NCBI RefSeq assembly: GCF_013761175.1
Contig: NZ_JACDUR010000004.1
Coordinates: 620,001-684,000, forward strand
Direction of reading: 5' to 3'
Length of the DNA: 64,000 nucleotides
Origin: Nonomuraea soli
GTDB lineage: Bacteria; Actinomycetota; Actinomycetes; Streptosporangiales; Streptosporangiaceae
The position numbers and the translations under genes were made by a program. A model generated the notes under the pieces. The model worked only from the letters and a program-made list of their open reading frames with translations, did no database searches and had not been told where the DNA came from. Positions 5,376 through 17,896 of this stretch are shown piece by piece (the stretch's first letter is position 1; each line of letters opens with the position of its first letter).

Positions 5376-6182
5376 TCACCCGCAGAGCGAGCAGTGGGTG
5401 CGGCGGCGCGCATGGCGGCGCACGTGCCCGCGCGGAGCGCCGGAGAGTGAGGCGTCGCTGGTGAGGATGGCCAGCTCCAGCCGCCGCAGATCGGCGGAGG
5501 GCTCCAGGCCGAGGTTCTCGGTCAGATAGCGCCGTCCGTCACGGTAGGCCTGGAGCGCGTCGGCCTGCCGTCCGGCCCGGTACAGGGCGATCATCAGCTG
5601 GCCGCGGAAACGTTCCTGGAGCGGGTACTCCTTCACCAGCACCGACAGCTCGCCGATCAGGTCGGCATGCCGGGCCAGGCGCAGGTCGGCGTCGATGCAG
5701 TCGCCCAGGGCCGCCAGCCGTTCCTCGTTGAGCCGGGTGGCCTCCTGGTGTAGCAGCGGGGTGTCCTCCAGGCCGTGCAGGGCGGGCCCGCGCCACAACC
5801 GCAGCGCGCTGTGCAGGAGCTGGCTGGCCTCGCTGACCCGCCCGGCGGCCAGGTGGCGCCGGCCGTCGAAGACGAAACGTTCGAAGCGGTGGGCGTCGAC
5901 GGCTTCCGCGGGGGCGTGCAGGGCGTAGCCCGAGGAGCGCCGGACGATCACCTCGCGGGCGCCCAGGATGCGTCGCAGGCGATGTAACTGCAGGCGCAGC
6001 CGGGTGCTGCCCAGCTCGCCCGCCTCCGGTCCCCAGAGCGCGTCGATGAGCACGTCGGTGTGGACGACCGTGCCCGCCCGGCACAGCAGGAGTGCCAGCA
6101 GCGCCTGCTGCTTGACCGACCGCACGGGCAGTTGGGAATCGCCGTCTATGACTTCGAGAGCACCCAATATTCCGAATCGCAC
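5376..6182 (-). CDS. SARP-type (BTAD) transcriptional regulator
   Basis: 268-residue Streptomyces antibiotic regulatory protein: an OmpR-like winged-helix DNA-binding domain (residues about 1-92, from VRFGILGALEVIDG to RSSGYAL) then a bacterial transcriptional activation domain (about 97-240). There is no C-terminal ATPase, so it is of the short SARP class. I chose the GTG at 6182 because it is preceded by AGGAG at a good distance and gives the typical SARP N-terminus; a longer frame to 6305 exists but adds non-family sequence. The tail is Arg/His-rich (RRHARRRTH) and ends CSLCG. Divergent from the exopolysaccharide operon; the intervening DNA holds three 11-bp-spaced repeats, so it probably activates that operon (inference). 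Confidence 0.88.
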   Translation of the reverse strand: MRFGILGALEVIDGDSQLPVRSVKQQALLALLLCRAGTVVHTDVLIDALWGPEAGELGSTRLRLQLHRLRRILGAREVIVRRSSGYALHAPAEAVDAHRFERFVFDGRRHLAAGRVSEASQLLHSALRLWRGPALHGLEDTPLLHQEATRLNEERLAALGDCIDADLRLARHADLIGELSVLVKEYPLQERFRGQLMIALYRAGRQADALQAYRDGRRYLTENLGLEPSADLRRLELAILTSDASLSGAPRGHVRRHARRRTHCSLCG

Positions 6183-6231
6183 GGCTCGCTCCTGGATCCT
6201 CACAAAGATTTTTGGACTAAAGGAGGATAAA

Positions 6232-6252
6232 GCCTGCACGGAGAGTGCAGGC
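6232..6252. promoter_or_regulatory. Inverted repeat in the SARP/exopolysaccharide divergent promoter
   Basis: Perfect 8-bp inverted repeat GCCTGCAC-GGAGA-GTGCAGGC in the 161-bp region between the divergent start codons at 6182 and 6344. It could be an operator or a hairpin in the leader of either transcript. No factor can be assigned from sequence. Confidence 0.5.
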
Positions 6253-6263
6253 GCTGTTCCGGA

Positions 6264-6293
6264 GAGAAACCGACGGGAAACTGAAGTGAAACT
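6264..6293 (+). promoter_or_regulatory. Three direct repeats with 11-bp period, candidate SARP-binding site
   Basis: GNGAAACY occurs at 6264-6271, 6275-6282 and 6286-6293, exactly 11 bp apart. SARP regulators classically bind direct heptamer repeats on one helical face with an 11-bp period just upstream of the -10 region of their targets. The array lies 50 bp before the first exopolysaccharide gene and beside a SARP gene. The -10 box itself is not clear. Confidence 0.62.
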
Positions 6294-6343
6294 CCCTGAT
6301 CTCACACTGACTTCATCATTCGCTCCATGTCGGAGATAAATCC

Positions 6344-8434
6344 ATGAAAAAAGGCTATTTGGCGTGGACAGCCCTCCCGATGTTGCTAAGCCTCACATCG
6401 GTTCCAGCCACCCATATCTCCCCTAAGCCGAATATCGGGCAAAGCGTCTCGCATGACGGTCACGACCACGGCGCACCCGACCGCGGGGAGGTCGCCAGGC
6501 CGAAGCCGGAGAAGGGCAAGGCGCTGCCCAAGGTGAAGCTCGCCCCCATCGAGGTCACCTCCGACGCCCAGGCCAGGACCCTGGCCGCGCCCGTCACCAA
6601 CAAGGTGGGCCTGCGCGCCCTCGTGGTCGCCGTCGACGGCGACGACTTCGGCCTGGCCACCTGGAAGGCGGTGCTGGACCGCGTCGGCATGCCGTACGAC
6701 GTCGTCCAGACCAGAACCGAGGCGCTGCCCGAGCTCCTGCGCGCCGACGGCGCCGGCAAGTACAACGCGATCCTGCTCACCAACAACTCGCTGCTCTACC
6801 ACGACGGCAGCGGCTTCGTCAGCGGCCTGGACGCCCAGGAATGGAACGCTCTATGGGCCTACGAGCGTGACTTCGCGGTGCGGCAGGTCTCGCTCTACAC
6901 CGCCTACGGCAGCTTCCCCGAGGACTACTGCCTGCGCCCCGGCACGGAGAACGGCAACGCGACCAACGCCACCCTCACCACGCAGGGCGCGCCCGTCTTC
7001 GACTACCTCAAGTCGAACGTGTCGATCCCGATCACGCTCTCCTACGTCTACCGCTCCGCGCTGCAGCCGGGCTGCGCCGCCGAGCCGATCCTGCAGTCGG
7101 GCAGCGACGTGCTGGGCGTCAAGAGCACCAGCACCGACGGACGCGAGCGCATGGCGCTGACCTTCACCTCCAACCAGTACCTGCCCCAGGCCGACCTGCT
7201 GACCTACGGCCTGCTGCGGTGGGCGACGCGCGGGCTCATGCTCGGCGAGCGCAAGCACTACCTGAACGTGGACGTGGACGACTGGTTCAACTCCACCGAC
7301 CACCTGCTGGCCGACGGGACGATCTCCCCCACCCCCTTCCGCATCACCCAGGGCGACGCCTCCAGCACGCTCTCCCAGCAGAACGCCTTCCGCGCGGCCA
7401 ACCCGCTGGCCTCCGGCTTCAAGCTCAACATCGCCTACAACGGCGAGGGCGCCAACCCGAACGGGCTCGTCCTGTGCCTGCTCAACCTGGGCGGTGAGCC
7501 GCTGAGCAACTGGTCGAAGTGCAACCAGGCGCAGTTCACGTGGATCAACCACACGATGACCCACCCGAAGATGAACGACACCGACTACACGACCAGCCTC
7601 AACGAGATCAACCAGAACCTCACGCGGGCACAGCAGATGGGCATCCCGGTCGACAGGACCGTCCTGAAGACCGGAGAGTACTCCGGCCTGGGCGTCTACC
7701 ACCCGGACCCCAACAACGACATCGACCCGCCCACGGACTTCGGCCTGGCCGCCTCCAACCCGAACCTGCTGCAGGCGGCCAAGGACGCCGGCGTGAAGTA
7801 CCTGCACGGCAACATGTCGTTCAACAGCCACAAGCCGAGCTGCTTCAACTGCGGCATCTACCATCCGCTGGAGCAGTCGCTGCTGATCGTGCCCGACTGG
7901 CCCGTCAACGTCGCCTACCACGTCACCAACCAGGCGGAGGAGACGACCTTCTACAACTCCTACTACGGCCCGCATGGCAAGTTCCCCTACTGGCCGGTCA
8001 ACCAGACCTACACCCAGATCGTCGACCACGAGTCGAACGTCGGCCTCCAGCACGTCATGTCGGGCTCGGTCTATTCGCACACCTTCCACCAGGGCAACCT
8101 GCGGAACTACGGCGGCAACAAGAACCTGACCTTCGACTGGATCAACGCCGTCGTCAACAAGTACAAGTCGTACTACAACGTCCCGCTCGTCACGCCGAAC
8201 TGGGGCGGCCTGGCCGGCTACGTCGCCGGCCGCAACGCCCACTTCTCGGCCCTCACCGCCGGCGCCGACGCCGTCTACGACCGTACGGCAGGCACGATCA
8301 CCTTCACCTCGCCCGCCAACGGCTCGGTGCTGGCCACCAACGCCGGAGGCGCCGCCTACGGCACCGACAAGACCGCGACCATCGCGCTCACCGCCAACAC
8401 CCCTGTGACCGTCGCGGCGAGTCCACGCCCGTGA
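6344..8434 (+). CDS. Agd3-like exopolysaccharide deacetylase (CBM87-CE18 type), secreted
   Basis: 696-residue exported protein. N-terminus MKKGYLAW plus a hydrophobic stretch is a plausible Sec signal, followed by a His/Pro/Lys-rich linker to about residue 85. Next comes an alpha/beta region (residues about 86-300) resembling the CBM87 domain of fungal Agd3, then a NodB-like barrel: LNVDVDDWF (about 306-314; Asp metal/base motif), HTMTHP (about 403-408; HxxxH metal ligands) and KTGEYSGL (about 442). This architecture matches CE18 deacetylases that partly de-N-acetylate galactosaminogalactan, making it cationic and adhesive. First gene of the operon, with GGAG before the ATG. The 5' end is unusually AT-rich. 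Substrate assignment rests on family resemblance and on the neighbouring PelF-like and GH114-like genes. Confidence 0.78.
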   Translation: MKKGYLAWTALPMLLSLTSVPATHISPKPNIGQSVSHDGHDHGAPDRGEVARPKPEKGKALPKVKLAPIEVTSDAQARTLAAPVTNKVGLRALVVAVDGDDFGLATWKAVLDRVGMPYDVVQTRTEALPELLRADGAGKYNAILLTNNSLLYHDGSGFVSGLDAQEWNALWAYERDFAVRQVSLYTAYGSFPEDYCLRPGTENGNATNATLTTQGAPVFDYLKSNVSIPITLSYVYRSALQPGCAAEPILQSGSDVLGVKSTSTDGRERMALTFTSNQYLPQADLLTYGLLRWATRGLMLGERKHYLNVDVDDWFNSTDHLLADGTISPTPFRITQGDASSTLSQQNAFRAANPLASGFKLNIAYNGEGANPNGLVLCLLNLGGEPLSNWSKCNQAQFTWINHTMTHPKMNDTDYTTSLNEINQNLTRAQQMGIPVDRTVLKTGEYSGLGVYHPDPNNDIDPPTDFGLAASNPNLLQAAKDAGVKYLHGNMSFNSHKPSCFNCGIYHPLEQSLLIVPDWPVNVAYHVTNQAEETTFYNSYYGPHGKFPYWPVNQTYTQIVDHESNVGLQHVMSGSVYSHTFHQGNLRNYGGNKNLTFDWINAVVNKYKSYYNVPLVTPNWGGLAGYVAGRNAHFSALTAGADAVYDRTAGTITFTSPANGSVLATNAGGAAYGTDKTATIALTANTPVTVAASPRP

Positions 8435-9822
8435 CATCGAAGGTAACTCTGGTATCCGAGGGCACCTACCCGTTCGCCATGGGCGGTGTGAGCGTCTGGA
8501 TGGACCAGCTCATCCGGGGCATGCCCGACTACACGTGGGACGTCGTGACGCTCACGGTGGACGGCGCGGAACGCCCGGTCTGGGACCTCCCGGACAACCT
8601 CGACCAGGTCATCTCGCTGCCCCTGTGGGTGAGCACCCTCCGGCGCTCTTCTCGAGCGCCGGAGGCGTCCTTCCACACGGCCTACGGGGAGTTCCTGAGG
8701 ATGATCCTCACCCCGGCCGTCATGGGGGAGGGCAGCAGGCAGTTCATCGGCGTGCTCGAGGAGCTGTCGAGCTTCCCCGACCTGCTCGGCGCGATCACCA
8801 GCACCGAGGCGCTGACCCAGCTGATGGACTGCTGGTACTGGAACCGGCTCGACGGCATCAACCTGGCCGACGCCATCACCGCCGCCAACCTGCTGGGGCA
8901 CATGCTGCGCCCGCTGGCCGCCGAGCCGATCAGGACCGACCTGACGCACGTGGCCATGAACGGGCTGAGCATGCTGGTGGCGATGGCCGCCAAGTGGAGG
9001 TACGGCACGCCCATCGTGCTCTCCGAGCACGGCGTCTACCTGCGCGAGCGTTACCTGCAGTACCTGACGGAGCCGGTCAGCCACCCCGTGCGGGTCATGC
9101 TCCTCAGCTTCTTCCGCCGCCTGGCCGGCGCCTCCTACGCGATCGCCGACCGCATCGCGCCGCACTCCTCCTACAACAAACGCTGGCAGGTGCGCGGCGG
9201 CGCGGACCCCTCGCGGATCCACGTCATGTACAACGGCGTCGACCCCACCGACTTCCCGCTGGCCACCGGCGAACCCGACCGGCCGACCCTGGTCTTCATG
9301 GGGCGCATCGACCCGCTCAAGGACCTGCACACCCTGATCCGCGCCTTCGCGATCATCAGGGAGAAGCTGCCCGACGCCGTGCTGCGCATGTTCGGCGGCA
9401 CCCCCGAGGGCAACGAGACCTACCACGCGAGCTGCCAGGCGCTCATCGAGGAACTGGGCCTCGTGGGCTCCGCCATCCTGGAAGGCAGGGTCACCTCGCC
9501 CGTCCACGCCTACCACGCGGGCCACATCGTGATGCTGACCAGCATCTCGGAAGGCTTCCCCTACACCGTCGTGGAGGCCATGGCCTGCGGCAGGGCGACC
9601 GTGTGCACCAACGTCGGAGGCGTGGCGGAGGCGGTGGCCGAGGCCGGGATCGTCGTGGCGCCCCGTGACCACGTCGCCGTCGCCGAGGCGGCCGTACGGC
9701 TGCTGACCGACGCGCCGATGCGCGCCCGCATGGGCGCCCTGGCCCGCAAGCGTGTCCTCGAACGTTTCACCCTGCAGCAGTCTCTTGACGACTATCGCCA
9801 GGTCTACCAGGAGTTACTGTGA
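8431..9822 (+). CDS. PelF-like GT4 glycosyltransferase
   Basis: 463 residues; GTG start overlapping the previous stop by 4 bp. The opening VTLVSEGTYPFAMGGVSVW and the roughly 250-residue N-terminal domain are characteristic of PelF (DUF3492). The C-terminal GT-B half carries NGVDPTDF, FMGRIDPLKDL and the donor-site segment SISEGFPYTVVEAMACG. PelF-type enzymes are cytosolic polymerases of GalNAc/GlcNAc-containing Pel, using UDP-HexNAc. There is no PelD or other c-di-GMP receptor in the window, so control probably differs from Gram-negative pel systems. Works with the membrane protein that starts 4 bp before its stop. Confidence 0.82.
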   Translation: MTSKVTLVSEGTYPFAMGGVSVWMDQLIRGMPDYTWDVVTLTVDGAERPVWDLPDNLDQVISLPLWVSTLRRSSRAPEASFHTAYGEFLRMILTPAVMGEGSRQFIGVLEELSSFPDLLGAITSTEALTQLMDCWYWNRLDGINLADAITAANLLGHMLRPLAAEPIRTDLTHVAMNGLSMLVAMAAKWRYGTPIVLSEHGVYLRERYLQYLTEPVSHPVRVMLLSFFRRLAGASYAIADRIAPHSSYNKRWQVRGGADPSRIHVMYNGVDPTDFPLATGEPDRPTLVFMGRIDPLKDLHTLIRAFAIIREKLPDAVLRMFGGTPEGNETYHASCQALIEELGLVGSAILEGRVTSPVHAYHAGHIVMLTSISEGFPYTVVEAMACGRATVCTNVGGVAEAVAEAGIVVAPRDHVAVAEAAVRLLTDAPMRARMGALARKRVLERFTLQQSLDDYRQVYQELL

Positions 9823-11108
9823 GCGATGAACTGGCCGATCAATTACGGCCGAAGCTCGTCCACGCCGTCGAGCCGCTCCAGGTGGCCGCCGCGCTGGAAT
9901 CCGAAGGCCTCAACGACAAGATCGCCCGCGACCGATACGGGCACACCGACGTCTTCTCCCTCGCGGAGGAGGTCTACGCCCGGCTGGCCCGGGAGGCGCG
10001 GCCGCCGGTGGAGCCCGCGCCCCGCCGTCCCCGCATGCTCGCCCAGCTCAGCCACGGCCTGCTGTACGGCATGCCGGGCGCCCTGCTGCCGGCCACCTCG
10101 GCGCTGGTCGGCGCCCAGTGGCTGATGCCGGGCCTGGTCCTCACCACCGGAGCCGGCTGGATCCTCGGGGGCTGCATGGCCCGCATGGTGTACGGCAAGC
10201 CTGACTCCGCCTGGACGGTCGTCGTCTACGGCCTGGTGGCCGGAGCCGTGGCCGCGCTGGCCATCGGGCTGCTGGTCCAGGGCCCACCGGCGCTGCTGGC
10301 GCTCTGCGTCGTACAGATCACCTTCCAGCTCTGCTCCGGCATGCTGCTCATCCACCACCAGGAGGCGCTGCTGGCCGTCCTGATGGGACCGGGAGTCGTC
10401 GCGGGCGTCACCTATCTCGTCATTGGCACGCCGTTCGCCGCGATCGTCGCGGTGGTCGTCGGCACGCTGTGCATCGCGGGCGTCACGGGAGCGGCCCTCG
10501 TGCTCACCTCACGGCAACGCGCGCCGCTCGCCGTACCCAGAGGTCTGCTCCTCGGTCTCGTGCACAGCCTGCTGACCGCGCTCTTCCTGCTCCAGGCCGA
10601 GGCCCGCTACGTGGTGGGCCGCCCCGACATCGCCATCGCCGGCGCCGGGCTGGTGCTCGGCATGGGGGTGCTGGAGTTCCGCGCCCACTGCTTCGAGACC
10701 GACGTCCGCTCGGTGATCAGGCAGGTGTGCTACCCGGCCGAGTTCACCCGCCACGGCCACCGGCTGCTGCTCGCCGGGCTGGGCATCTGCCTGGCGGTCC
10801 TGACCGTGTTGTCGGCGCCGCCGCTGCTGCTGGTCTCGATCACGGCGGAGGGCGCGGTCATGGCCCTGGCGCACGTCGTGCTCGGCGGCGCCTACTTCCT
10901 GGCCTTCCTGCTGGCCAACCAGGGCAGAGTCGTCGAGCTCTGCCTGGCGCAGGGGGCCGCCCTGCTCATCCATCCAGGCCTGCGGCTGGTCGCCCCCGTC
11001 CCGGTGCTCTCGGACACCCTGCTCTTCCTGGCCGCCTGCCTGCTCTTCCTCTGCCTCCTGCTCGTCCTGATGGCCGCCCGCCTCAGAGACGTGTGGGCCT
11101 ACCGATAG
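9819..11108 (+). CDS. Polytopic membrane protein, candidate polysaccharide export component
   Basis: 429 residues. The first ~68 residues are soluble and cytosol-like (charged, with a conserved-looking RDRYGHTDVFSLAEEVY segment); about 10-12 hydrophobic membrane segments follow from MLAQLSHGLLYG to the C-terminus. It sits immediately after the PelF-like gene (GTGA overlap), the position where pel operons place PelG, a 12-TM MATE/PST-like transporter. I cannot see clear PelG motifs, so the export role is inference from topology and position. The next gene starts 10 bp downstream behind TAGGAG. Confidence 0.65.
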   Translation: MSDELADQLRPKLVHAVEPLQVAAALESEGLNDKIARDRYGHTDVFSLAEEVYARLAREARPPVEPAPRRPRMLAQLSHGLLYGMPGALLPATSALVGAQWLMPGLVLTTGAGWILGGCMARMVYGKPDSAWTVVVYGLVAGAVAALAIGLLVQGPPALLALCVVQITFQLCSGMLLIHHQEALLAVLMGPGVVAGVTYLVIGTPFAAIVAVVVGTLCIAGVTGAALVLTSRQRAPLAVPRGLLLGLVHSLLTALFLLQAEARYVVGRPDIAIAGAGLVLGMGVLEFRAHCFETDVRSVIRQVCYPAEFTRHGHRLLLAGLGICLAVLTVLSAPPLLLVSITAEGAVMALAHVVLGGAYFLAFLLANQGRVVELCLAQGAALLIHPGLRLVAPVPVLSDTLLFLAACLLFLCLLLVLMAARLRDVWAYR

Positions 11109-11118
11109 GAGCATTCTC

Positions 11119-11847
11119 ATGCATGTCGTCATCCTCGCCGGTGGCAAGGGGGTGCGCCTGCGCCCCTACACCTCCGCCCTGCCCAAGCCACTCGTGCCGA
11201 TCGGGGAGGAGTACGCCATCCTCGACATCATCCTGCGGCAGCTCGTCTCCCAGGGCTTCACCAGCGCGACCCTGGCCGTGGGCCACCTCAGCCCGCTGAT
11301 CAGGGCCTTCGTCGGCGACGGCTCACGATGGGGGCTCCAGGTCGACTACACCGAGGAGGTCAAGCCGCTGTCCACCATCGGGCCGCTGTTCTCCATCCGC
11401 GACCGGCTGCCCGAGCACTTCCTCGTCATGAACGGGGACGTGCTGACCACGCTCAACTACGCCTCGCTGCTGACCTCGCACGGGCTGAGCGGAGCGCCGC
11501 TGACCGTGGCCACGGCGCCGCGCGTCGTCAAGATCGACTTCGGGGTGCTGGAGGCGGGATCGGGATTCATCACCGGATTCCGGGAGAAGCCGCTGCTGTC
11601 CTACCTGGTCAGCATGGGTGTCTACGCGCTGTCGCGCAGCGCCATCGACGACTACCCCGAGGGCATGTCGTTCGGCTTCGACGAGCTGGTGCTCGACCTG
11701 CTGGCCAGGCAGAGCCCGCCGGCCGTCTTCGAGTTCGACGGGTACTGGCTCGACATCGGGCGGCCCGACGACTACGACGAGGCCAACGCCCGCTTCGAGG
11801 AGTACAGGGGGCTGCTGCTGCCGCCGGAGAAGGAGCCGGTGGCATGA
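11119..11847 (+). CDS. Sugar-1-phosphate nucleotidyltransferase
   Basis: 242-residue NTP-transferase domain protein that would activate a sugar phosphate to an NDP-sugar for the polymer. Seen: LAGGKGVRLRPYT (nucleotide-binding loop, residues 6-18), LPKPLVPIG, the metal-site MNGDVLT near 107, and FREKP near 156. It lacks a C-terminal left-handed beta-helix, so it is the short single-domain form (glucose-1-P thymidylyl- or mannose-1-P guanylyl-like). Strong TAGGAG ribosome-binding site. Nucleotide and sugar specificity cannot be decided. Confidence 0.85.
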   Translation: MHVVILAGGKGVRLRPYTSALPKPLVPIGEEYAILDIILRQLVSQGFTSATLAVGHLSPLIRAFVGDGSRWGLQVDYTEEVKPLSTIGPLFSIRDRLPEHFLVMNGDVLTTLNYASLLTSHGLSGAPLTVATAPRVVKIDFGVLEAGSGFITGFREKPLLSYLVSMGVYALSRSAIDDYPEGMSFGFDELVLDLLARQSPPAVFEFDGYWLDIGRPDDYDEANARFEEYRGLLLPPEKEPVA

Positions 11848-12755
11848 GCGACACCTCGGGGGGCCCGCGCCGGGTGCTGCTCTTCGGCGCCTCCGGCTTC
11901 ATCGGCCGCTGGGTGCGCGCCCAGCTCGACGGCGACCCGCGCGTGTCCGAGCTGCACTGCCCGGGCCGCGCCCGGCTCGACCTGCTCACCGCCGGCGCCG
12001 CCGAGGTCGCCGACCTGCTGGCCGAGACCCGGCCCGACCTGATACTCAACTGCATGGGCAAACTCACCGGACCGCCCGACGTGCTGCTGCGCGCCAACGC
12101 CGGTGTCGTCGCCCTGCTCCTGCACGCCATGGCCGAGGTCACTCCGACCGCTCGCCTGGTACGGCTCGGCTCGGCCGCCGAATACGGCGCCTGCGTTCCC
12201 GGCTACACCATCCAGGAGGACGACGCCGCCCTGCCGCTCAGCGACTACGGCGTCAGCCACCTCGCCGGCTCCGGCCTCGTCCGCAACAGCGCGCTCGACG
12301 CCGTATCGCTGCGCGTCTTCAACCCCGTCGGCCCCGGCACCTCCGACGCCAGCGTCCTGGGCCGGGCCCGCGACCTCCTGCGGGAGGCGGTCGCCACCGG
12401 CGCCTCCTCGATCAGCCTCGGCTCGCTGGCCGCCATGCGCGACTTCATCGACGTCAGAGACGTCGCCGACGCCGTCGTGGCCGCCGCCTTCGCCCCCTCC
12501 ACACCCGAGCGGATCTTCAACGTGGGCAGCGGCCAGGCGCTCCCGGTCAGGGTCCCGGTGGCGCTGCTCGCCCGCGAACACGGCTTCGACGGCGACATCC
12601 ACGAGAGCGAGCCCAGCTCGGCCCGCTCCGCCGCCGTGCAATGGAGCCAGGCCGACATCGGCCGCGCCCGCCGCCTCCTCGGCTGGGAGCCGAAACGCAC
12701 GCTCGAGACCTCCATCCGTGACATGACACAGCTAGGGAGCACGATCAATGCCTAA
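11844..12755 (+). CDS. NAD(P)-dependent sugar-nucleotide epimerase/reductase with altered catalytic Lys
   Basis: 303-residue extended SDR. Rossmann motif GASGFIG near residues 15-21, LRLGSAAEYG (the catalytic-Ser segment) and DYGVSHLAG, where the usual YxxxK reads YxxxH. The C-terminal substrate half contains VFNPVGPG and RDFIDVRDV. Normal members act as NDP-sugar 4-epimerases, dehydratases or reductases; Lys-to-His would weaken or change the proton relay, or the gene could serve a binding or altered reaction. Starts with a 4-bp overlap and overlaps the dehydrogenase downstream by 8 bp. Confidence 0.82.
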   Translation: MSDTSGGPRRVLLFGASGFIGRWVRAQLDGDPRVSELHCPGRARLDLLTAGAAEVADLLAETRPDLILNCMGKLTGPPDVLLRANAGVVALLLHAMAEVTPTARLVRLGSAAEYGACVPGYTIQEDDAALPLSDYGVSHLAGSGLVRNSALDAVSLRVFNPVGPGTSDASVLGRARDLLREAVATGASSISLGSLAAMRDFIDVRDVADAVVAAAFAPSTPERIFNVGSGQALPVRVPVALLAREHGFDGDIHESEPSSARSAAVQWSQADIGRARRLLGWEPKRTLETSIRDMTQLGSTINA

Positions 12756-14001
12756 GACCGTCGCCGTCGTCGGCATGGGGTACGTGGGCCTCACGCTCAC
12801 CGCCGCCATGGCCCGCAACGGTTACACCGTGTACGGCGTGGACGCCAACCCGTCCGTTGTCGAGGCGCTGTCCAACGGGCGCATCCACGTGTTCGAGCCC
12901 GGCGTGGCCGAAGTGTTCGCCGAGCACCTCGGCACCCGGATCCACGTCGGCTCGGCCATCCCGGACCAGCCGCTGGACGCCGCCATCCTGGCCGTCTCCA
13001 CCCCCGTCGTGAACCAGAAGCCCGACCTGTCGAACCTCGAGGCCGCCGCCGTACACGTGGCCGAGAAGTGCCGGCCCGACACCCTCGTGGTCGTACGGAG
13101 CACCGTGCCCGTCGGCACCAGCCGTACGGTCGTCCTGCCCCGCCTGTGGCAGGACGCCCGGCTGATCATGGCGCCCGAGCGGACCATCCAGGGCCAGGCC
13201 CTGCGCGAACTCGTGGAGCTGCCCCAGGTCATCGGCGGGCTCGACAGCCCCAGCCTGGCCGCCGGCATCGACCTGTTCGAAGGCCTGGCCGACCAGATCG
13301 TCCCCGTGTCGAGCCTGGAGACGGCCGAGCTGGTCAAACTCTCCAACAACTGCCACACCGACCTGATCTACGCCTACGGCAACGAGGTCGCGCTCATCGC
13401 CGAGCAGCACGGGCTCGACCCGCTGGAGGTCATCGCCGCCACCAACCTCGACTACCCGCGGCCCGACCTGGCCAAGCCCGGCTACGTGGGCGGCGGCTGC
13501 CTGTCGAAGGACCCCTACATCATGCTCGCCAGCGGCGCCTCCTCCCTCGTGCGCTCCGCCCGTGAGCTCAACGAGCGCCTGCCCGCCCACGTCGCCTCCC
13601 GCATGGTCGACCTCATCCGCGAGGAGTTCGGCACCTGCGAAGGCATCCGCCTCTCGGTGCTCGGCTGGGCCTACAAGGGCTGGCCCGCCACCGACGACAT
13701 GCGCGGAACCCCCATCGAGGTGATGATGCCGATCTTCCAGGTCGCCGGGCTGATCGTCCAAGGCCACGACCCGCTCGTGCCGGAGGAGGTGATCAGGCAG
13801 TACGGCGGGCAGCCGATGAGCCTGGACAAGGCCGTCTCCTCCGCCGACGCGCTACTGGTGATCAACGACCACCCCGACTACCGCGAGCTGTCGATCGAGG
13901 AAGCACAGGCCAAGGTGGTCTTCGACTCCTGGCGCATCCTCGACGAGGAGACCGTGCTGGAGCGGGGCGCCCGCTACGCCGGGATCGGATACGCCCGATG
14001 A
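12748..14001 (+). CDS. UDP-sugar 6-dehydrogenase (UDP-ManNAc/GalNAc/Glc dehydrogenase family)
   Basis: 417-residue nucleotide-sugar dehydrogenase that oxidises C6 of a UDP-hexose(-NAc) to the uronic acid with two NAD+. Seen: Rossmann GMGYVGL (residues 9-15), RSTVPVGTS, KLSNNCHTD in the central helix, the catalytic-Cys loop GYVGGGCLSKDP near 247-258, and GWAYKGWPATDDMRGTP in the C-terminal domain (usual GLAFKxxxxDxRxSP). It implies that an acidic sugar is made for the polymer or for an attached glycan. Embedded in the overlapping operon. Confidence 0.88.
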   Translation: MPKTVAVVGMGYVGLTLTAAMARNGYTVYGVDANPSVVEALSNGRIHVFEPGVAEVFAEHLGTRIHVGSAIPDQPLDAAILAVSTPVVNQKPDLSNLEAAAVHVAEKCRPDTLVVVRSTVPVGTSRTVVLPRLWQDARLIMAPERTIQGQALRELVELPQVIGGLDSPSLAAGIDLFEGLADQIVPVSSLETAELVKLSNNCHTDLIYAYGNEVALIAEQHGLDPLEVIAATNLDYPRPDLAKPGYVGGGCLSKDPYIMLASGASSLVRSARELNERLPAHVASRMVDLIREEFGTCEGIRLSVLGWAYKGWPATDDMRGTPIEVMMPIFQVAGLIVQGHDPLVPEEVIRQYGGQPMSLDKAVSSADALLVINDHPDYRELSIEEAQAKVVFDSWRILDEETVLERGARYAGIGYAR

Positions 14002-14918
14002 GGGCCCTGCTGCTGGGCGGCGCCGGCTTCATCGGCCTGCACCTGGCCCGCCGCCTCCTCGCCGACGGCCACTCCGTCACCATCGTCGACGACTTCTCGC
14101 GCGGCAAGCACGACTTCGGCGACCTCGGCGACGTGCGCTCCCTCGACCTGACCCTGGCCTCCTCCTACTCCACCCTGGACAAGGACGGCTGGGACCAGAT
14201 CTACATGCTGGCCGCCATCGTCGGCGTCAGGAACGTCGAAGCCGACCCCGGCCGCGTCCTGCGCGTCAACTCCCTGGCCCTGCTCCACCTGCTCGACTGG
14301 ATCAAACCGGGGCAGCGCCTGTTCTTCGCCTCCACCAGCGAGGCCTACGCCGGAGGCGTCTCGGCAGGACTCGTCCCCGTACCCACCCCGGAAACGGTGC
14401 CGCTCCTGATCGAGGACGTCGGCTCGGCACGCTACAGCTACGCCATCAGCAAGGCGCTCGGCGAAGCCGCCGTCATCCACAGCCCCGCCGCCGCCGTCGT
14501 CGGACGCTTCCACAACGTCTACGGACCCCGCATGGGCGCCGACCACGTCATCCCCGAACTGTCCCTGCGCGCCCTGCGCGGCGAGGACCCCTTCCGCCTC
14601 TACGGCTCCGACCAGTCACGCGCCTTCTGCTACGTCGACGACGCCGTCGAAGCCATGGTCAGGCTCATGGACGCCGACTTCTCCGGCATCGTCCACATCG
14701 GCAACCCGGAAGAGACCAACATCGGCGACCTGGCCAAACTCGTGCTCCGCGTCGCCGGAGCATCACCGCAGATCGACGCCGTCCCCGCCCCGCCCGGCTC
14801 CGTCGCCCGCCGATGCCCCGACATCTCCCTCCTCCAGCAGGTCACCGGCTTCACCCCCCAGATCTCCCTCGAAGAAGGCGTACGCCGCACCTTCGCCTGG
14901 TACCGGGAGCAGCTGTGA
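13998..14918 (+). CDS. NAD-dependent sugar-nucleotide epimerase/decarboxylase
   Basis: 306-residue extended SDR with GGAGFIG (residues 7-13), an FASTSEAYAG active-site Ser/Thr segment, YSYAISK (the complete YxxxK, unlike its upstream paralogue), GRFHNVYGPRMG and AFCYVDDAVEAM. Closest in look to UDP-GlcNAc/GalNAc 4-epimerases and UDP-glucuronate decarboxylases. A UDP-HexNAc 4-epimerase would supply the UDP-GalNAc needed for a Pel- or GAG-like polymer, as Uge3 does in fungi (inference). ATGA overlap with the dehydrogenase. Confidence 0.85.
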   Translation: MRALLLGGAGFIGLHLARRLLADGHSVTIVDDFSRGKHDFGDLGDVRSLDLTLASSYSTLDKDGWDQIYMLAAIVGVRNVEADPGRVLRVNSLALLHLLDWIKPGQRLFFASTSEAYAGGVSAGLVPVPTPETVPLLIEDVGSARYSYAISKALGEAAVIHSPAAAVVGRFHNVYGPRMGADHVIPELSLRALRGEDPFRLYGSDQSRAFCYVDDAVEAMVRLMDADFSGIVHIGNPEETNIGDLAKLVLRVAGASPQIDAVPAPPGSVARRCPDISLLQQVTGFTPQISLEEGVRRTFAWYREQL

Positions 14919-15607
14919 GGAAGCCGATCTGCTTCTACTACGGCGACAAGGAACTCGAACGGCTGTCCCGCTTCGAGAAAGTCGTCCTCCAGGCCGACTT
15001 CTACTCCCCGCCGGAACTGGCCGAGCTTCGCTCCCGCGGCGTCCACACACTCGGCTACCTGTCCCTGTCCGAGGACGTCGGCCCCGCCGCCCCATGGCAG
15101 CGCGCCGAACGCAACCCCGACTGGGGTGGCGCCTTCGTCCACGTGGGCGACCCCGGCTGGATGGCCCACGTCGTCGACCAGGCCCGCCGCGCCGTCGCCG
15201 GCGGCTTCGCCGGGCTCTTCCTCGACACCCTCAACCTCGAGCAGACCTTTCCCGAGGACCTGCCCCACCTGCTCACCCTCATCGCCGCGATCAGAGAGGA
15301 GGCACGGCCCGACTACCTGCTCGCCAACCGAGGGTTCGCCCTGCTCCCGCAGCTGGCCTCGCTCGTGGACGGGATCCTCTTCGAGTCGTTCTCCGCACGG
15401 TGGGTGGACATGGAGCACTACGCGCCATGGCCCGACGACGTGCTCGCCTTCCACGGGCAGGTGGCGGAGCAGCTGCTGGAGTACGACCTGGACCTCTACG
15501 CGCTGGACTACGCGGACGGGCGGGAGCTGACGGACTTCGCCTACCGGCGGGCGCGGGAGTTCGGCATGTTGTGCTTCGTCAGCGATCGGGCCCTCTCCCG
15601 CCTCTGA
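14915..15607 (+). CDS. GH114-like endo-alpha-1,4-polygalactosaminidase domain protein, no signal peptide
   Basis: 230-residue TIM-barrel protein of the GH114/TM1410 group; the family hydrolyses alpha-1,4-galactosaminidic links (Ega3 in Aspergillus is the model). Seen: VVLQADFYSPPEL early in the barrel, LGYLSLSEDV, GGFAGLFLDTLN with a candidate catalytic Asp near residue 103, ANRGFALLPQL, and ILFESFSARW with a candidate acid Glu near 155. The GTG start overlaps the previous stop by 4 bp. No signal peptide or membrane anchor is visible, so it may act in the cytosol or leave by another route. Last gene of the operon, followed by hairpin-rich repeats. Confidence 0.75.
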   Translation: MRKPICFYYGDKELERLSRFEKVVLQADFYSPPELAELRSRGVHTLGYLSLSEDVGPAAPWQRAERNPDWGGAFVHVGDPGWMAHVVDQARRAVAGGFAGLFLDTLNLEQTFPEDLPHLLTLIAAIREEARPDYLLANRGFALLPQLASLVDGILFESFSARWVDMEHYAPWPDDVLAFHGQVAEQLLEYDLDLYALDYADGRELTDFAYRRAREFGMLCFVSDRALSRL

Positions 15608-15624
15608 CGGCTCGGGCCTCGCAG

Positions 15625-15728
15625 GTCGTGCGCCTTCGGCGCTGGTCGGCCTCGGGCTGTGCCTGGTGGGGGTGGTCCTTCGGCCCACCCCCACACCCCC
15701 TAGGTCGATGGCCCGGGGGCCATCGACA
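15625..15728. repeat. Hairpin-bearing direct repeat, copy 1
   Basis: 104 bp, matching copy 2 (160 bp downstream) at all positions but one (T at 15701). Contains a stem GTGGGGGTGG...CCACCCCCAC around TCCTTCGGC and a second near-palindrome around GGCCCGGGGGCC. It lies in the convergent gap between the GH114 and Fic genes, so the hairpins could terminate transcription from both sides. No gene is supported at 15608-15994. Confidence 0.85.
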
Positions 15729-15784
15729 ACCCGTCCGTAGTTCTCGCCCCTCGCCCCCCTTCCACGGGCATGGGCCTCGCGGGG

Positions 15785-15888
15785 GTCGTGCGCCTTCGGC
15801 GCTGGTCGGCCTCGGGCTGTGCCTGGTGGGGGTGGTCCTTCGGCCCACCCCCACACCCCCGAGGTCGATGGCCCGGGGGCCATCGACA
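15785..15888. repeat. Hairpin-bearing direct repeat, copy 2
   Basis: Second copy of the 104-bp unit with the same two inverted repeats; G at 15861 is the only difference. Upstream flanks also share GGGCCTCGC. Lack of drift suggests recent duplication or gene conversion, or a dispersed intergenic repeat family. Confidence 0.85.
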
Positions 15889-15994
15889 CCCCGCTCGGGG
15901 TTCTCGGGCGCGGATGGTCCTTGGCTCAGGGTCGATAGTGTGCGACCGTCCGGCCTTATCGGTCAGGATGAACCGGGGAGCCGAGCAGGCATCC

Positions 15995-17140
15995 TCACGC
16001 CTGGTAGGGATCCACCAGCGAGAACGGAGTCCGTGCGAGTTCCAGCGGAGGCTCAGGAAAGGCGGGCCCCACGGTGTAGAACCGAGCACGGGTCTTCCCG
16101 ACAGGTGTGAGCAGCTGAGCCGTCACCAGGTCGCGAAGGTCACGCTGAGCCTGCTGCACGCTCAACCCCTCGGCCGCCTCGTAGCGGCTGCGCCGTACAC
16201 GCCCGGAGACCGCGACGTCGTGGAGTGCGGTGACCACCCGCTCGTCCAGCCCGCGATGCCGGGCGAACTCCTCGAGGAGAACCCACACCCGGTTGGAGCG
16301 GTCGAGCCGGGCGTGTACCGATTGAGCCTGCTGGTGGTAGGCGGTGAGGTTGAAGCGGATCCACTCCGACACGTCTTGATCGGGGTGGTAGGTCACACCT
16401 CGGCGGGCGAGCACGGAGTAGTACTCCCACGTGTTGCCCGGGCGGCCCAGCCAGGCCTCGATGGAGGAGAATTCCGGCGCCAGGGTGCCGTCTCTGGAGA
16501 TGAGCAGGGTCTGCAGGGAGCGTGACATCCGGCCGTTGCCGTCGGCCCAGGGGTGGATCGAGACCAGGTGCAGGTGCGACATGGCCGCTCGGATCAGGGG
16601 GCTGGTGCCGTCGTCGGTGTTGAGCCAGTCGGTGAGTTCCGACATCAGGCCCGGCACCTGGGATGCCTCGGGGGCGGTGTAGGCGGCGATGCTGGGGTCG
16701 CGGGCGTCGGTGACGTAGACGGGGCCTCGTCTCCACTGGCCGGCGGGCTTGCGGATGGAGTGGCGGTGGCCCTGGAGCATCCAGTGCAGGGCGTTGATGA
16801 AGCCGGTGCTGTAGGCGAAGTCGGGGGCGTCGTGGAGTGACTGGATGTAGGTCATCATTCGCTGGTAGGCGAGGGTCTCCTCGCGGTTCTCGTCGGTGAC
16901 GTCGACGTCTCGTTCACCCTCCATCAGGTCCTCCACGTCGATGGTGGAGACCTTGAAGCCCTCGATGGAGTTGGACGCGGCGATCGCGTCGGCGGCGAGG
17001 AACTTTCGTAGACCGGCGATCAGCTTGGCGGGAGCGCTGAGGGCATGGTGGTGCAGGTCCCTCCGGGCGGCTTTGATCTCCAGAAGGACTCTGCTGTCTT
17101 CTGATGTGAGGATGGGCGTGCGATAGAGCATTGCTGCCAT
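15995..17140 (-). CDS. Fic family protein with N-terminal inhibitory motif
   Basis: 381-residue Fic/DOC enzyme, which transfers AMP (or another phospho-moiety) to hydroxyl side chains of target proteins. Seen: a Fic_N region with the inhibitory motif SNSIEG (S56xxxE60G61), marking a class II self-inhibited Fic; the core motif HPWADGNGRMSR (residues 196-207) with catalytic His and all anion-binding residues; and a C-terminal winged-helix-like part (QQAQRDLRDLVTAQLL). I chose ATG 17140, since longer frames run into the divergent gene; ATG 17131 is an alternative. Its start is only 15 bp from the divergent receptor gene. No antitoxin-like small partner is seen; target unknown. Confidence 0.87.
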   Translation of the reverse strand: MAAMLYRTPILTSEDSRVLLEIKAARRDLHHHALSAPAKLIAGLRKFLAADAIAASNSIEGFKVSTIDVEDLMEGERDVDVTDENREETLAYQRMMTYIQSLHDAPDFAYSTGFINALHWMLQGHRHSIRKPAGQWRRGPVYVTDARDPSIAAYTAPEASQVPGLMSELTDWLNTDDGTSPLIRAAMSHLHLVSIHPWADGNGRMSRSLQTLLISRDGTLAPEFSSIEAWLGRPGNTWEYYSVLARRGVTYHPDQDVSEWIRFNLTAYHQQAQSVHARLDRSNRVWVLLEEFARHRGLDERVVTALHDVAVSGRVRRSRYEAAEGLSVQQAQRDLRDLVTAQLLTPVGKTRARFYTVGPAFPEPPLELARTPFSLVDPYQA

Positions 17141-17155
17141 GTCTAGGGTGGATGT

Positions 17156-17896
17156 GTGCGAGATGACCTGGGTGTCGATGTCGATGTGCCCGACCGAGTC
17201 GACCGCATCGTGTCGATCGTTCCCTCCCTCACCGAATCGGTGGCCGCAACGGGCAAGCTCGTAGGTGCGACCGACTGGTGCACCCACCCCCATGACCTCG
17301 ATGTCTCAAGGGTCAGGGGCACGAAGAACCCGGATCTGGCGAAGATCGCTGCCCTCAACCCCGATGTGGTTCTCGCCAACTTCGAGGAGAACCGGGAACC
17401 CGACCTTCAAGCCCTCCGTGACCAGGGCATCGCTGTGTGGGTGACCAGGATTCGGACAGTGGAGGAGGCTTTCGAGTCGCTGGCGAGGATGTTCGAGCAT
17501 GCCTGCCGTACGCCCAAGCCCTCCTGGCTGCGTGAGGCTGAGCGGGTCTGGAGCGACTTGCCCCGGCCGGAAACGAGGCGGACGGCGGTCGTTCCGATCT
17601 GGCGCAGGCCATGGATGGTTGTGGGCAGTGGCACGTTCACCGGGGATGTGTTGCGCAGGCTGGGGATCGACAACCTGTATGAGGGGCACGAGGAGCGGTA
17701 TCCGAAGGTGTCCTTGGGTGAGCTTGTCAGCGAAAATCCGGATCTGGTGATTTTGCCGGATGAGCCTTATATGTTCACCGCGGATGACGGGCCCGAGTGT
17801 TTTCCCGGGCAGAAGACCGTGCTGGTCAGCGGGCGCTATCTGACTTGGTACGGCCCGAGTCTGGTCGAGGCGCCGGGGGCGCTCGCGATCGGTTGA
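17156..17896 (+). CDS. Helical-backbone metal receptor (BtuF/TroA-like), cytosolic form
   Basis: 246 residues. The family fold of periplasmic cobalamin/haem/siderophore-binding proteins is recognisable: RIVSIVPSLTESVAATG at residues about 16-32, GTKNPDLAKIAALNPDVVL, an interdomain helix, and the C-terminal PDLVILPDEPYMF. There is no signal peptide or lipobox and no permease or ATPase nearby, which fits the widespread actinobacterial stand-alone cytosolic subgroup. GTG start gives the usual RDDLG opening. The start nearly abuts that of the divergent fic gene. Ligand unknown. Confidence 0.8.
   Translation: MRDDLGVDVDVPDRVDRIVSIVPSLTESVAATGKLVGATDWCTHPHDLDVSRVRGTKNPDLAKIAALNPDVVLANFEENREPDLQALRDQGIAVWVTRIRTVEEAFESLARMFEHACRTPKPSWLREAERVWSDLPRPETRRTAVVPIWRRPWMVVGSGTFTGDVLRRLGIDNLYEGHEERYPKVSLGELVSENPDLVILPDEPYMFTADDGPECFPGQKTVLVSGRYLTWYGPSLVEAPGALAIG

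Follow-up and report, generated by a model that had tools for sequence, protein, structure and literature searches.

A Predicted SARP-Controlled, Pel-Like Exopolysaccharide Operon with an Exchangeable Sugar-Donor Module in Nonomuraea soli

Overview of the Operon

A stretch of 64,000 nucleotides of the Nonomuraea soli genome (contig NZ_JACDUR010000004.1, positions 620,001 to 684,000; hereafter, the window) carries an operon of eight genes on the forward strand (6344–15607), with a SARP-type regulator gene oriented divergently upstream. The host genome comprises 10.1 Mb in 21 contigs. The operon probably encodes a SARP-switched machine making, exporting, and finishing an N-acetylhexosamine (HexNAc) heteropolysaccharide, and comparison of 88 loci revealed one machine with exchangeable donor modules. 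The gene content points to a polymer with an N-deacetylated HexNAc backbone and a second sugar, which is probably either a pentose or an amino-pentose. The gene families, the membrane protein fold, the conserved gene set, the SARP box, and the donor-module swap were read directly from the sequence or a structure model. The compared loci comprised 80 found in a profile scan of genome contigs with the PelF alignment (the 80 best-ranked among 563 confirmed stretches) and 8 others, and the class counts given below describe loci near the query.

All eight reading frames were confirmed. A preliminary description of this DNA, made from the letters alone, had presented eight overlapping genes; the eight genes are indeed there, and six of the seven junctions overlap (by 4, 4, 4, 8, 4, and 4 nt, in order), the third gene (MemP) and the fourth (NTase) being separated by the single gap of 10 nt. 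The true starts of the SDR1 gene (11844) and of the hydrolase gene (14915) fall within longer mechanical open reading frames, and each overlaps the preceding stop codon by 4 nt. Genome-neighbourhood comparison found the genes in this order in tens of Nonomuraea, Spongiactinospora, and Micromonosporaceae genomes; therefore, the operon is more than a chance arrangement. The preliminary description had overlooked the divergent SARP regulator and its box, the module swap, and the presence of a second operon copy elsewhere in this genome.

In the proposed mechanism, PelF would polymerise the chain in the cytosol, held at the membrane by an N-terminal domain of MemP standing in for PelD/PelE, and MemP would move the chain across the membrane. 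The CE18 enzyme would deacetylate it outside, yielding a cationic, adhesive polymer, which a GH114 hydrolase encoded in the second operon, and not in this one, would trim outside, while a leaderless GH166 enzyme would trim or recycle the chain inside. We infer the polymer class from the fact that relatives of the CE18 and GH114 (Agd3, Ega3) and GH166 (PelA) enzymes act on such polymers; relatives of Sph4, a hydrolase of sister loci, do so as well. Agd3 and Ega3 act on galactosaminogalactan, according to parts of PMC7229062, and PelA acts on Pel, as stated in sections of PMC12022489.

Deacetylase and Glycosyltransferase

The first gene (6344–8434) encodes an Agd3-like CE18/CBM87 polysaccharide N-deacetylase, as had been proposed, with an N-terminal signal peptide recognisable by eye. 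It matches the Pfam models Agd3_CE (57.9 bits) and CBM87_Agd3 (45.6 bits), both above the cut-off of 27.6, and the solved Agd3 structure 6nwz (phmmer, E 7.7e-15). In an alignment of 86 rows, with gaps excluded from the residue counts, the Asp-Asp of motif CM1 and the HxxxH of CM2 are invariant (D312, D313, H403, and H407 in 84/84), as is H582 of CM4 (86/86), while for CM3 no Arg in the region 301–672 reaches a conservation of 93%. The motifs CM1–CM4 follow the definition in the relevant section of PMC7229062, where CM3 is described as kept by most, not all, bacterial Agd3 homologues.

The second gene (8431–9822) encodes a cytosolic PelF-type GT4 glycosyltransferase, the presumed polymerase, which matches the NCBIfam PelF model NF038011 (155.8 bits, cut-off 100) and DUF3492 (164.4 bits), so that its earlier designation as PelF-like stands. 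None of 77 PelF relatives has a strongly hydrophobic N-terminus. A survey of 296 genomes of the phylum returned Agd3_CE matches in 5 and PelF matches (E 1e-30) in 13. As a separate observation, the canonical PelF–PelG loci G232:C1 and G262:C1 of this phylum have an Agd3_CE match about 1.1 kb from PelG.

Membrane Protein MemP

The multi-pass membrane protein noted previously, MemP (9819–11108), has 12 transmembrane segments and a conserved N-terminal helical domain (residues 16–58). In the structure model, it has the MATE/Wzx/MurJ fold of the MOP flippase superfamily, that is, the fold of WzxE and MurJ. The MemP-type N-terminal domain adjoins PelF-like genes in all 18 contexts checked. Among 200 genomes of the order, 13 gave a match to MemP itself, so the system is patchy; one of these matches (G041, E 3e-4, L028) is a weak one without further operon genes next to it. 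One PelF–MemP locus (L142, 12968–14338) has a CE18 region matched by short called pieces only, which may reflect decay of the deacetylase gene or an artefact of gene calling.

With the PelG model PF16933, MemP had no match even at E 10, nor had any of 13 MemP relatives; profile comparison of MemP with three PelG sequences gave a probability of 0.1, and a PelG profile search of the window's genome found nothing, the positive control ringing in T. maritima. No PelD match occurs among the eight operon genes in profile scans, in line with the preliminary description, and a PelD profile found none in the genome, though there the positive control was silent too. As to PelE, all eight operon genes were assigned to other families, and no PelE profile was run.

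The fold shared with WzxE and MurJ, together with the leaderless GH166, would also suit a cell-wall-linked glycopolymer or a glycoprotein glycan, rather than a free exopolysaccharide, with MemP flipping a lipid-linked unit like WzxE. However, no match to a polyprenyl-phosphate sugar transferase, Wzy, or an LCP ligase was obtained for any of the eight genes, the rest of the genome not having been searched for these, and we regard such a product as quite improbable.

Genes of the Donor Module

The sugar-1-phosphate nucleotidyltransferase (NTase, 11119–11847), already recognised as such, matches NTP_transferase with 117.8 bits, and its nearest solved structure is mannose-1-phosphate guanylyltransferase beta. 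The two short-chain dehydrogenase/reductase proteins had been taken for epimerases, a designation that has to be abandoned: SDR1 (11844–12755), a relative of the RMD/Preq-type 4-ketoreductases, is nearest to the GDP-6-deoxy-4-hexulose reductase 2pk3 (RMD type), and SDR2 (13998–14918) to the UDP-glucuronate decarboxylase 4lk3. GalE models scored below the cut-off for both, and neither is of the Uge3/GalE type. In SDR1 the catalytic YxxxK motif is broken, with His139 in place of Lys.

The active site of UDP-glucuronate decarboxylases (UXS) consists of TSE, YxxxK, and an Arg. The active-site residues of SDR2 align with those of 4lk3, the Lys pairing with a shifted alignment stretch, and STSE, Y148/K152, and R208-A-F-C are invariant in 47/47 sequences; UXS activity is predicted. 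The gene between them (UGD, 12748–14001) encodes a nucleotide-sugar 6-dehydrogenase, in agreement with the first assignment (TIGR03026, 284 bits against a cut-off of 189.8), with K197, N200, C251, K254, and D255 in 47/47; its nearest relatives are UDP-HexNAc dehydrogenases (4r16) and CalS8, with Cap5O beside CalS8.

Within this set, UGD would oxidise C6 and UXS would then remove it, so that NTase, UGD, and UXS together would yield a second donor, a C6-trimmed NDP-sugar (pentose or 2-acetamido-pentose). SDR1(His) would work at the C4 step of the donor pathway or have an altered chemistry. The dehydrogenase step of the "uronic-acid route" suggested earlier is thus present, but, SDR2 being UXS-like, the route probably continues to a pentose, and the uronic acid would then be no more than an intermediate, its carboxylate being removed by UXS.

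Locus Classes and Exchange of the Donor Module

Two main classes were distinguished. Class 1 (the window, Nonomuraea, Spongiactinospora, Micromonosporaceae, some Thermaceae, and others) typically has the order CE18-PelF-MemP-NTase-SDR1-GH114-UGD-UXS-GH166; GH114 is missing from the window operon, L047, L049, L067, and L068, GH166 is not seen in L042 and L064, and UGD-UXS is divergent in L067 and L068. Class 2 (Streptomyces, Kitasatospora, Pseudonocardiaceae, and others) has the order CE18-PelF-MemP-LegB-NTase-SDR1, with Sph4 in 25 of the 31 loci whose SDR1 retains Lys. A minimal set, CE18-PelF-MemP-GH166, occurs in Meiothermus (L073, L074, L077, L096) and N. dietziae (L031).

The SDR1 residue four positions after the catalytic Tyr is Lys in 31, His in 43, and Arg in 4 of 78 loci, the unique set after an 82-row set containing duplicate genomes, and LegB is found in 31/31 Lys loci and 0/47 His/Arg (class 1) loci. 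The 75 complete loci, those with at least 7 kb downstream (13 of the 88 with less were excluded), divide accordingly: 40 have SDR1-His with UGD/UXS, 27 SDR1-Lys with LegB, one SDR1-Arg with UGD/UXS, one SDR1-Lys with both modules, one (L072, Longispora) SDR1-Arg with neither, and five lack SDR1 and either module. L072 was rejected as an exception, a GH114-UGD-UXS-GH166 block lying about 8 kb away. Three further loci fit the split: L140 and L147 combine His with UGD/UXS, and L145 combines Lys with LegB. In the midpoint-rooted PelF tree of 88 rows, the two sides correspond to the two classes, with Arg at the base of class 1 and His above it.

Genome-wide searches agreed with this distribution. 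UXS orthologues (59–100%) were present in 6/6 class-1 genomes tested, and nothing above 38% was found in three class-2 and two minimal Meiothermus genomes. LegB-grade genes were found in 6/6 class-2 genomes (443–461 bits, in each case slightly short of the curated 475-bit cut-off) and in 0/17 class-1 genomes (best 169.8 bits). Two candidate assignments were discarded: the class-2 enzyme as a GDP-mannose 4,6-dehydratase, since it scores 446.8 bits as LegB-like (cut-off 475) and only 94 bits with the gmd model, and SDR1 as one unchanged ketoreductase in both classes, given the change of the catalytic Lys.

UXS enzymes are able to reduce their own 4-keto intermediate, which may be why the SDR1 lysine could be lost in class 1; SDR1 itself may be retained in both classes because both routes go via a 4-keto stage. 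The class-2 genes NTase, LegB, and SDR1(Lys) are best read as making an NDP-6-deoxy-HexNAc (N-acetylquinovosamine, QuiNAc, or N-acetylfucosamine, FucNAc), so that the sister class would add a 6-deoxy-HexNAc. The substrate of LegB is GDP-GlcNAc, according to the relevant part of PMC7439481. The class-2 pair LegB-SDR1(Lys) resembles the UDP-QuiNAc pathway of B. cereus (Pdeg/Preq; relevant part of PMC4514872) in combining a dehydratase with an RMD-like 4-ketoreductase, whereas class 1 has UGD and UXS for the dehydratase and His/Arg for the catalytic Lys.

In a narrower form of the favoured reading, UDP-glucose would be converted to UDP-xylose (or UDP-glucuronate) as the second donor, leading to xylosyl or uronosyl residues instead of an amino-pentose; as a sub-case, its probability overlaps with that of the whole. 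The nearest solved relative of SDR2, a UDP-glucuronate decarboxylase, and the presence of CalS8 among the nearest relatives of UGD speak for it, but UDP-HexNAc dehydrogenases are the closer relatives of UGD (4r16; Cap5O next to CalS8), UDP-glucose needs no dedicated nucleotidyltransferase, and LegB of the sister module is a GlcNAc-type enzyme. This narrower form is possible, though not the outcome that we would expect.

Two sets of loci stand apart. L100, a metagenome-assembled genome of Deinococci, has LegB and UGD+UXS in one locus together with SDR1(Lys), a possible intermediate between classes 1 and 2. L135–L139 contain a small locus with a PelF-like gene, a short MemP, SDR1(Lys), and Sph4, possibly a third class, without CE18, NTase, or LegB within the 20 kb read; a gene of about 360–417 codons adjoins in 5/5, and its product is a ThiF-rhodanese protein in the one tested, L136.

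Hydrolases and Their Predicted Location

The last gene of the operon (14915–15607) had been described as a GH114-like galactosaminidase. This assignment was rejected, since the Pfam GH114 model reaches only 19.2 bits (E 7.6e-4), under its cut-off of 27; among solved structures, the PelA hydrolase domain (5tcb, phmmer E 2.8e-18) is its best relative, a GH114-named chain giving only E 1.4e-3. The protein is therefore termed GH166-like, on the basis of its sequence match to the PelA hydrolase and not of a GH166 profile. Its catalytic pair, D104 and E157, is present in 47/47 sequences, and E157 aligns with the Glu mutated to Ala in 5tsy. A true GH114 enzyme (86.6 bits), probably secreted, is encoded in the second operon of the genome.

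The window protein has no signal peptide, and, with starts as called, a strongly hydrophobic N-terminus was found in GH166 of 0/42 loci, Sph4 of 1/21, and GH114 of 24/39, several GH114 proteins having a lipobox-like Cys by eye. This measure is a rough one: soluble UXS proteins also score positive (38/42), and CE18 signal peptides were truncated by gene calling (21/52 and 16/26 score positive); only its absence in GH166 and Sph4 was used. Class 1 therefore appears to combine one hydrolase at the surface with another in the cytosol, and we infer chain control or recycling as the role of the leaderless GH166. Pseudomonas PelA acts in the periplasm, according to sections of PMC12022489.

These identities bear on the idea, advanced in the preliminary description, of a fungal-type galactosaminogalactan made with Uge3-like epimerases and containing uronic acid. 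The fungal cluster consists of uge3, gtb3, ega3, agd3, and sph3, and CE18, together with GH114 in the second operon, recalls it. Nevertheless, neither SDR is GalE/Uge3-like, the resident hydrolase is GH166-like, and UXS would strip the carboxylate, which makes this product very unlikely. The joining of an Agd3-type part with a PelF-type glycosyltransferase stands, without GH114 or a Uge3-type epimerase in the operon, and bacterial combinations of Agd3-type parts with a cytosolic glycosyltransferase and a multi-spanning membrane protein, those of Actinobacteria included, are already on record in passages of PMC7229062.

SARP Regulator and Its Candidate Box

The divergent gene (5376–6305, reverse strand; likely start codon at 6182, by eye) encodes a SARP/BTAD regulator (BTAD 162 bits, Trans_reg_C 30.4 bits), and such a gene adjoins CE18 in 15 of the 88 loci. 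A predicted site of three GAAAC repeats with an 11-bp period (6266–6292, forward strand) lies 51 nt 5' of the CE18 start codon. The 11-bp repeat period is a hallmark of SARP sites. Three GAAA(C/T)-type repeats with this period are found upstream of CE18 in 15/15 SARP loci (13–15 of 15 positions), about 30–91 nt before a plausible start codon, the starts being uncertain. Mononucleotide shuffles of each 630-bp region reached the score of a SARP locus in 0–1 of 200 cases, compared with 0–195 of 200 for the scores of 9–11 in 37 loci without SARP (0 in L062). All 17 box sites in 343 kb of SARP loci lie upstream of CE18, and 2 were found in 1.32 Mb of 68 other loci. A promoter repeat search did not list the box. 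The SARP protein would bind the three repeats and switch the operon on.

In N. dietziae the cluster is split between two distant sites on one contig: CE18-PelF-MemP-GH166 (L031) is located at about 7.13 Mb, whereas the operon at about 2.16 Mb, NTase-SDR1(His)-GH114-UGD-UXS, carries a box of its own (score 13), 51 nt ahead of NTase. Since both operons carry the box, the module and the polymerase are linked in one presumed regulon without adjacency. SDR1, UGD, and UXS are jointly absent from L031 and L016 (the second operon of the window's genome), which belong to different PelF-tree clades, and both genomes carry the trio at another locus. This joint absence and the detached module support a joint SDR1-UGD-UXS pathway independently of the class split.

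The same data are relevant to the possibility of a plain Pel-type homopolymer of N-acetylgalactosamine/galactosamine, for which NTase, SDR1, UGD, and UXS would be merely carried along, feeding another glycan. Such a product is suggested by the minimal clusters of Meiothermus (L073, L074, L077, and L096) and N. dietziae L031, but a LegB or UGD+UXS module is in or beside the operon in 69/75 complete loci, plus L072 with UGD-UXS about 8 kb off, and the detached N. dietziae module keeps the same SARP box. A homopolymer is therefore considered unlikely.

Second Operon and Neighbouring Features

The second, diverged operon of the window's genome lies on another contig (G000:C2, L016, 7882–15002) and comprises CE18-PelF-MemP-NTase-GH114-GH166 with its own SARP gene and box. 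On the PelF tree it is sister to L039, from another Streptosporangiaceae bacterium, and not to the window copy. The two operons complement each other's missing genes.

Just downstream of the window operon, a 123-bp element is present in two copies (95%; 15624–15746 and 15784–15906). It has 18 matches in the genome, 11 of them over at least 80% of its length, including three pairs 153–160 bp apart, and represents a dispersed repeat family. It is followed by a gene for a Fic-domain protein (60 bits; 15995–17293, reverse strand), unrelated to the operon as far as seen.

Evidence against the Proposed Machine

Several observations weigh against the reading of the operon as a SARP-switched heteropolysaccharide machine. 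The operon PelF scores 156 bits, against 369–507 bits for PelF in three genomes of the phylum having PelG, and its donor may therefore differ. L016 retains NTase and lacks SDR1, UGD, and UXS, so the second sugar may be optional. For UGD/UXS, conversion of UDP-glucose to UDP-xylose is as possible as the use of an amino-sugar substrate. The lysine change tracks the class split of the PelF tree and is essentially one event, not 47. The third class keeps Lys in 5/5 loci with no LegB adjoining; thus, Lys does not require LegB and is the general state, and His/Arg marks class 1. In the window, the SARP motif had initially been spotted by eye, which leaves the remaining 14 loci as the test. Finally, MemP may be a remote homologue of PelG: its distant relative L141 has a sub-threshold PelG match (20.8 bits, cut-off 29; residues 180–533) and aligns with MemP with a probability of 98.5 in profile comparison.

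L141 (G222:C20), which also has the N-terminal domain, is a possible bridge between MemP and PelG. The claim that MemP is unrelated to PelG was softened on its account, the kinship being at most remote.

A more specific version of the heteropolysaccharide machine, tentative and as a whole somewhat doubtful, would be a distinct Pel-like machine without recognisable PelD, PelE, and PelG, with PelF docked on a MOP flippase via the N-terminal domain, transcription set by SARP, and an exchanged donor cassette. The cassette would swap an NDP-6-deoxy-HexNAc route (NTase-LegB-SDR1 with Lys) and an NDP-2-acetamido-pentose route (NTase-UGD-UXS, SDR1 with His/Arg).

Comparison with Known Systems and Implications

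The closest published relatives are the agd3 operons that Bamford et al. (2020; PMC7229062) described in bacteria, those of Actinobacteria included, which likewise contain a CE18 homologue, genes for a cytosolic glycosyltransferase and a membrane protein with multiple spans, and GH114 or Spherulin-4 genes; the part of that text dealing with bacterial operons makes no mention of an actinobacterial PelF class, the MOP fold, NTase/LegB/UGD/UXS modules, the lysine switch, GH166, or SARP. The Gram-positive pel loci pelDEA(DA)FG, some of them actinobacterial (PMC7112168), are alike in the PelF-type GT4, the separate deacetylase, and the accessory PelA-hydrolase-like gene, galE being another accessory gene. 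Unlike them, the loci studied here have a MemP without a PelG match (a distant relative matches weakly), no PelD match among the operon genes, a donor module, and a SARP box, and the pel sections of that paper do not mention donor modules, the lysine switch, a MOP model, or SARP. The fungal cluster shares the CE18 deacetylase, and GH114 or Spherulin-4 relatives in sister loci, whereas here a bacterial GT4, a MOP flippase, GH166, and other donors are found, with no Uge3-like epimerase.

In the open-licence literature, we found no characterised exopolysaccharide of such loci in Nonomuraea, Micromonosporaceae, Streptomyces/Kitasatospora, or Meiothermus, and no description of loci of the third class in papers on spherulin or Streptomyces, PMC7229062 being the sole relevant paper found. 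The new elements are the exchangeable donor modules with the SDR1 residue split, the SARP box, the split cluster of N. dietziae, and the pairing of the MemP N-terminal domain with PelF-like genes.

Together, these data offer gene-to-sugar predictions for an exopolysaccharide family in Nonomuraea, Micromonosporaceae, Streptomyces/Kitasatospora, and Meiothermus, and the Lys/His split provides a clean test of joint change in a donor cassette and a reductase active site. If the version with a docked PelF and an exchanged cassette were true, these bacteria would have biofilm polymers with deacetylated 6-deoxy-hexosamine or pentosamine, and the reductase lysine would have been altered in step with the cassette. 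The findings suggest that the PelD/PelE/PelG membrane complex may be replaceable by a single MOP protein with a docking domain, and that SARP regulators, a class known mainly for antibiotic clusters, can switch a matrix polymer.

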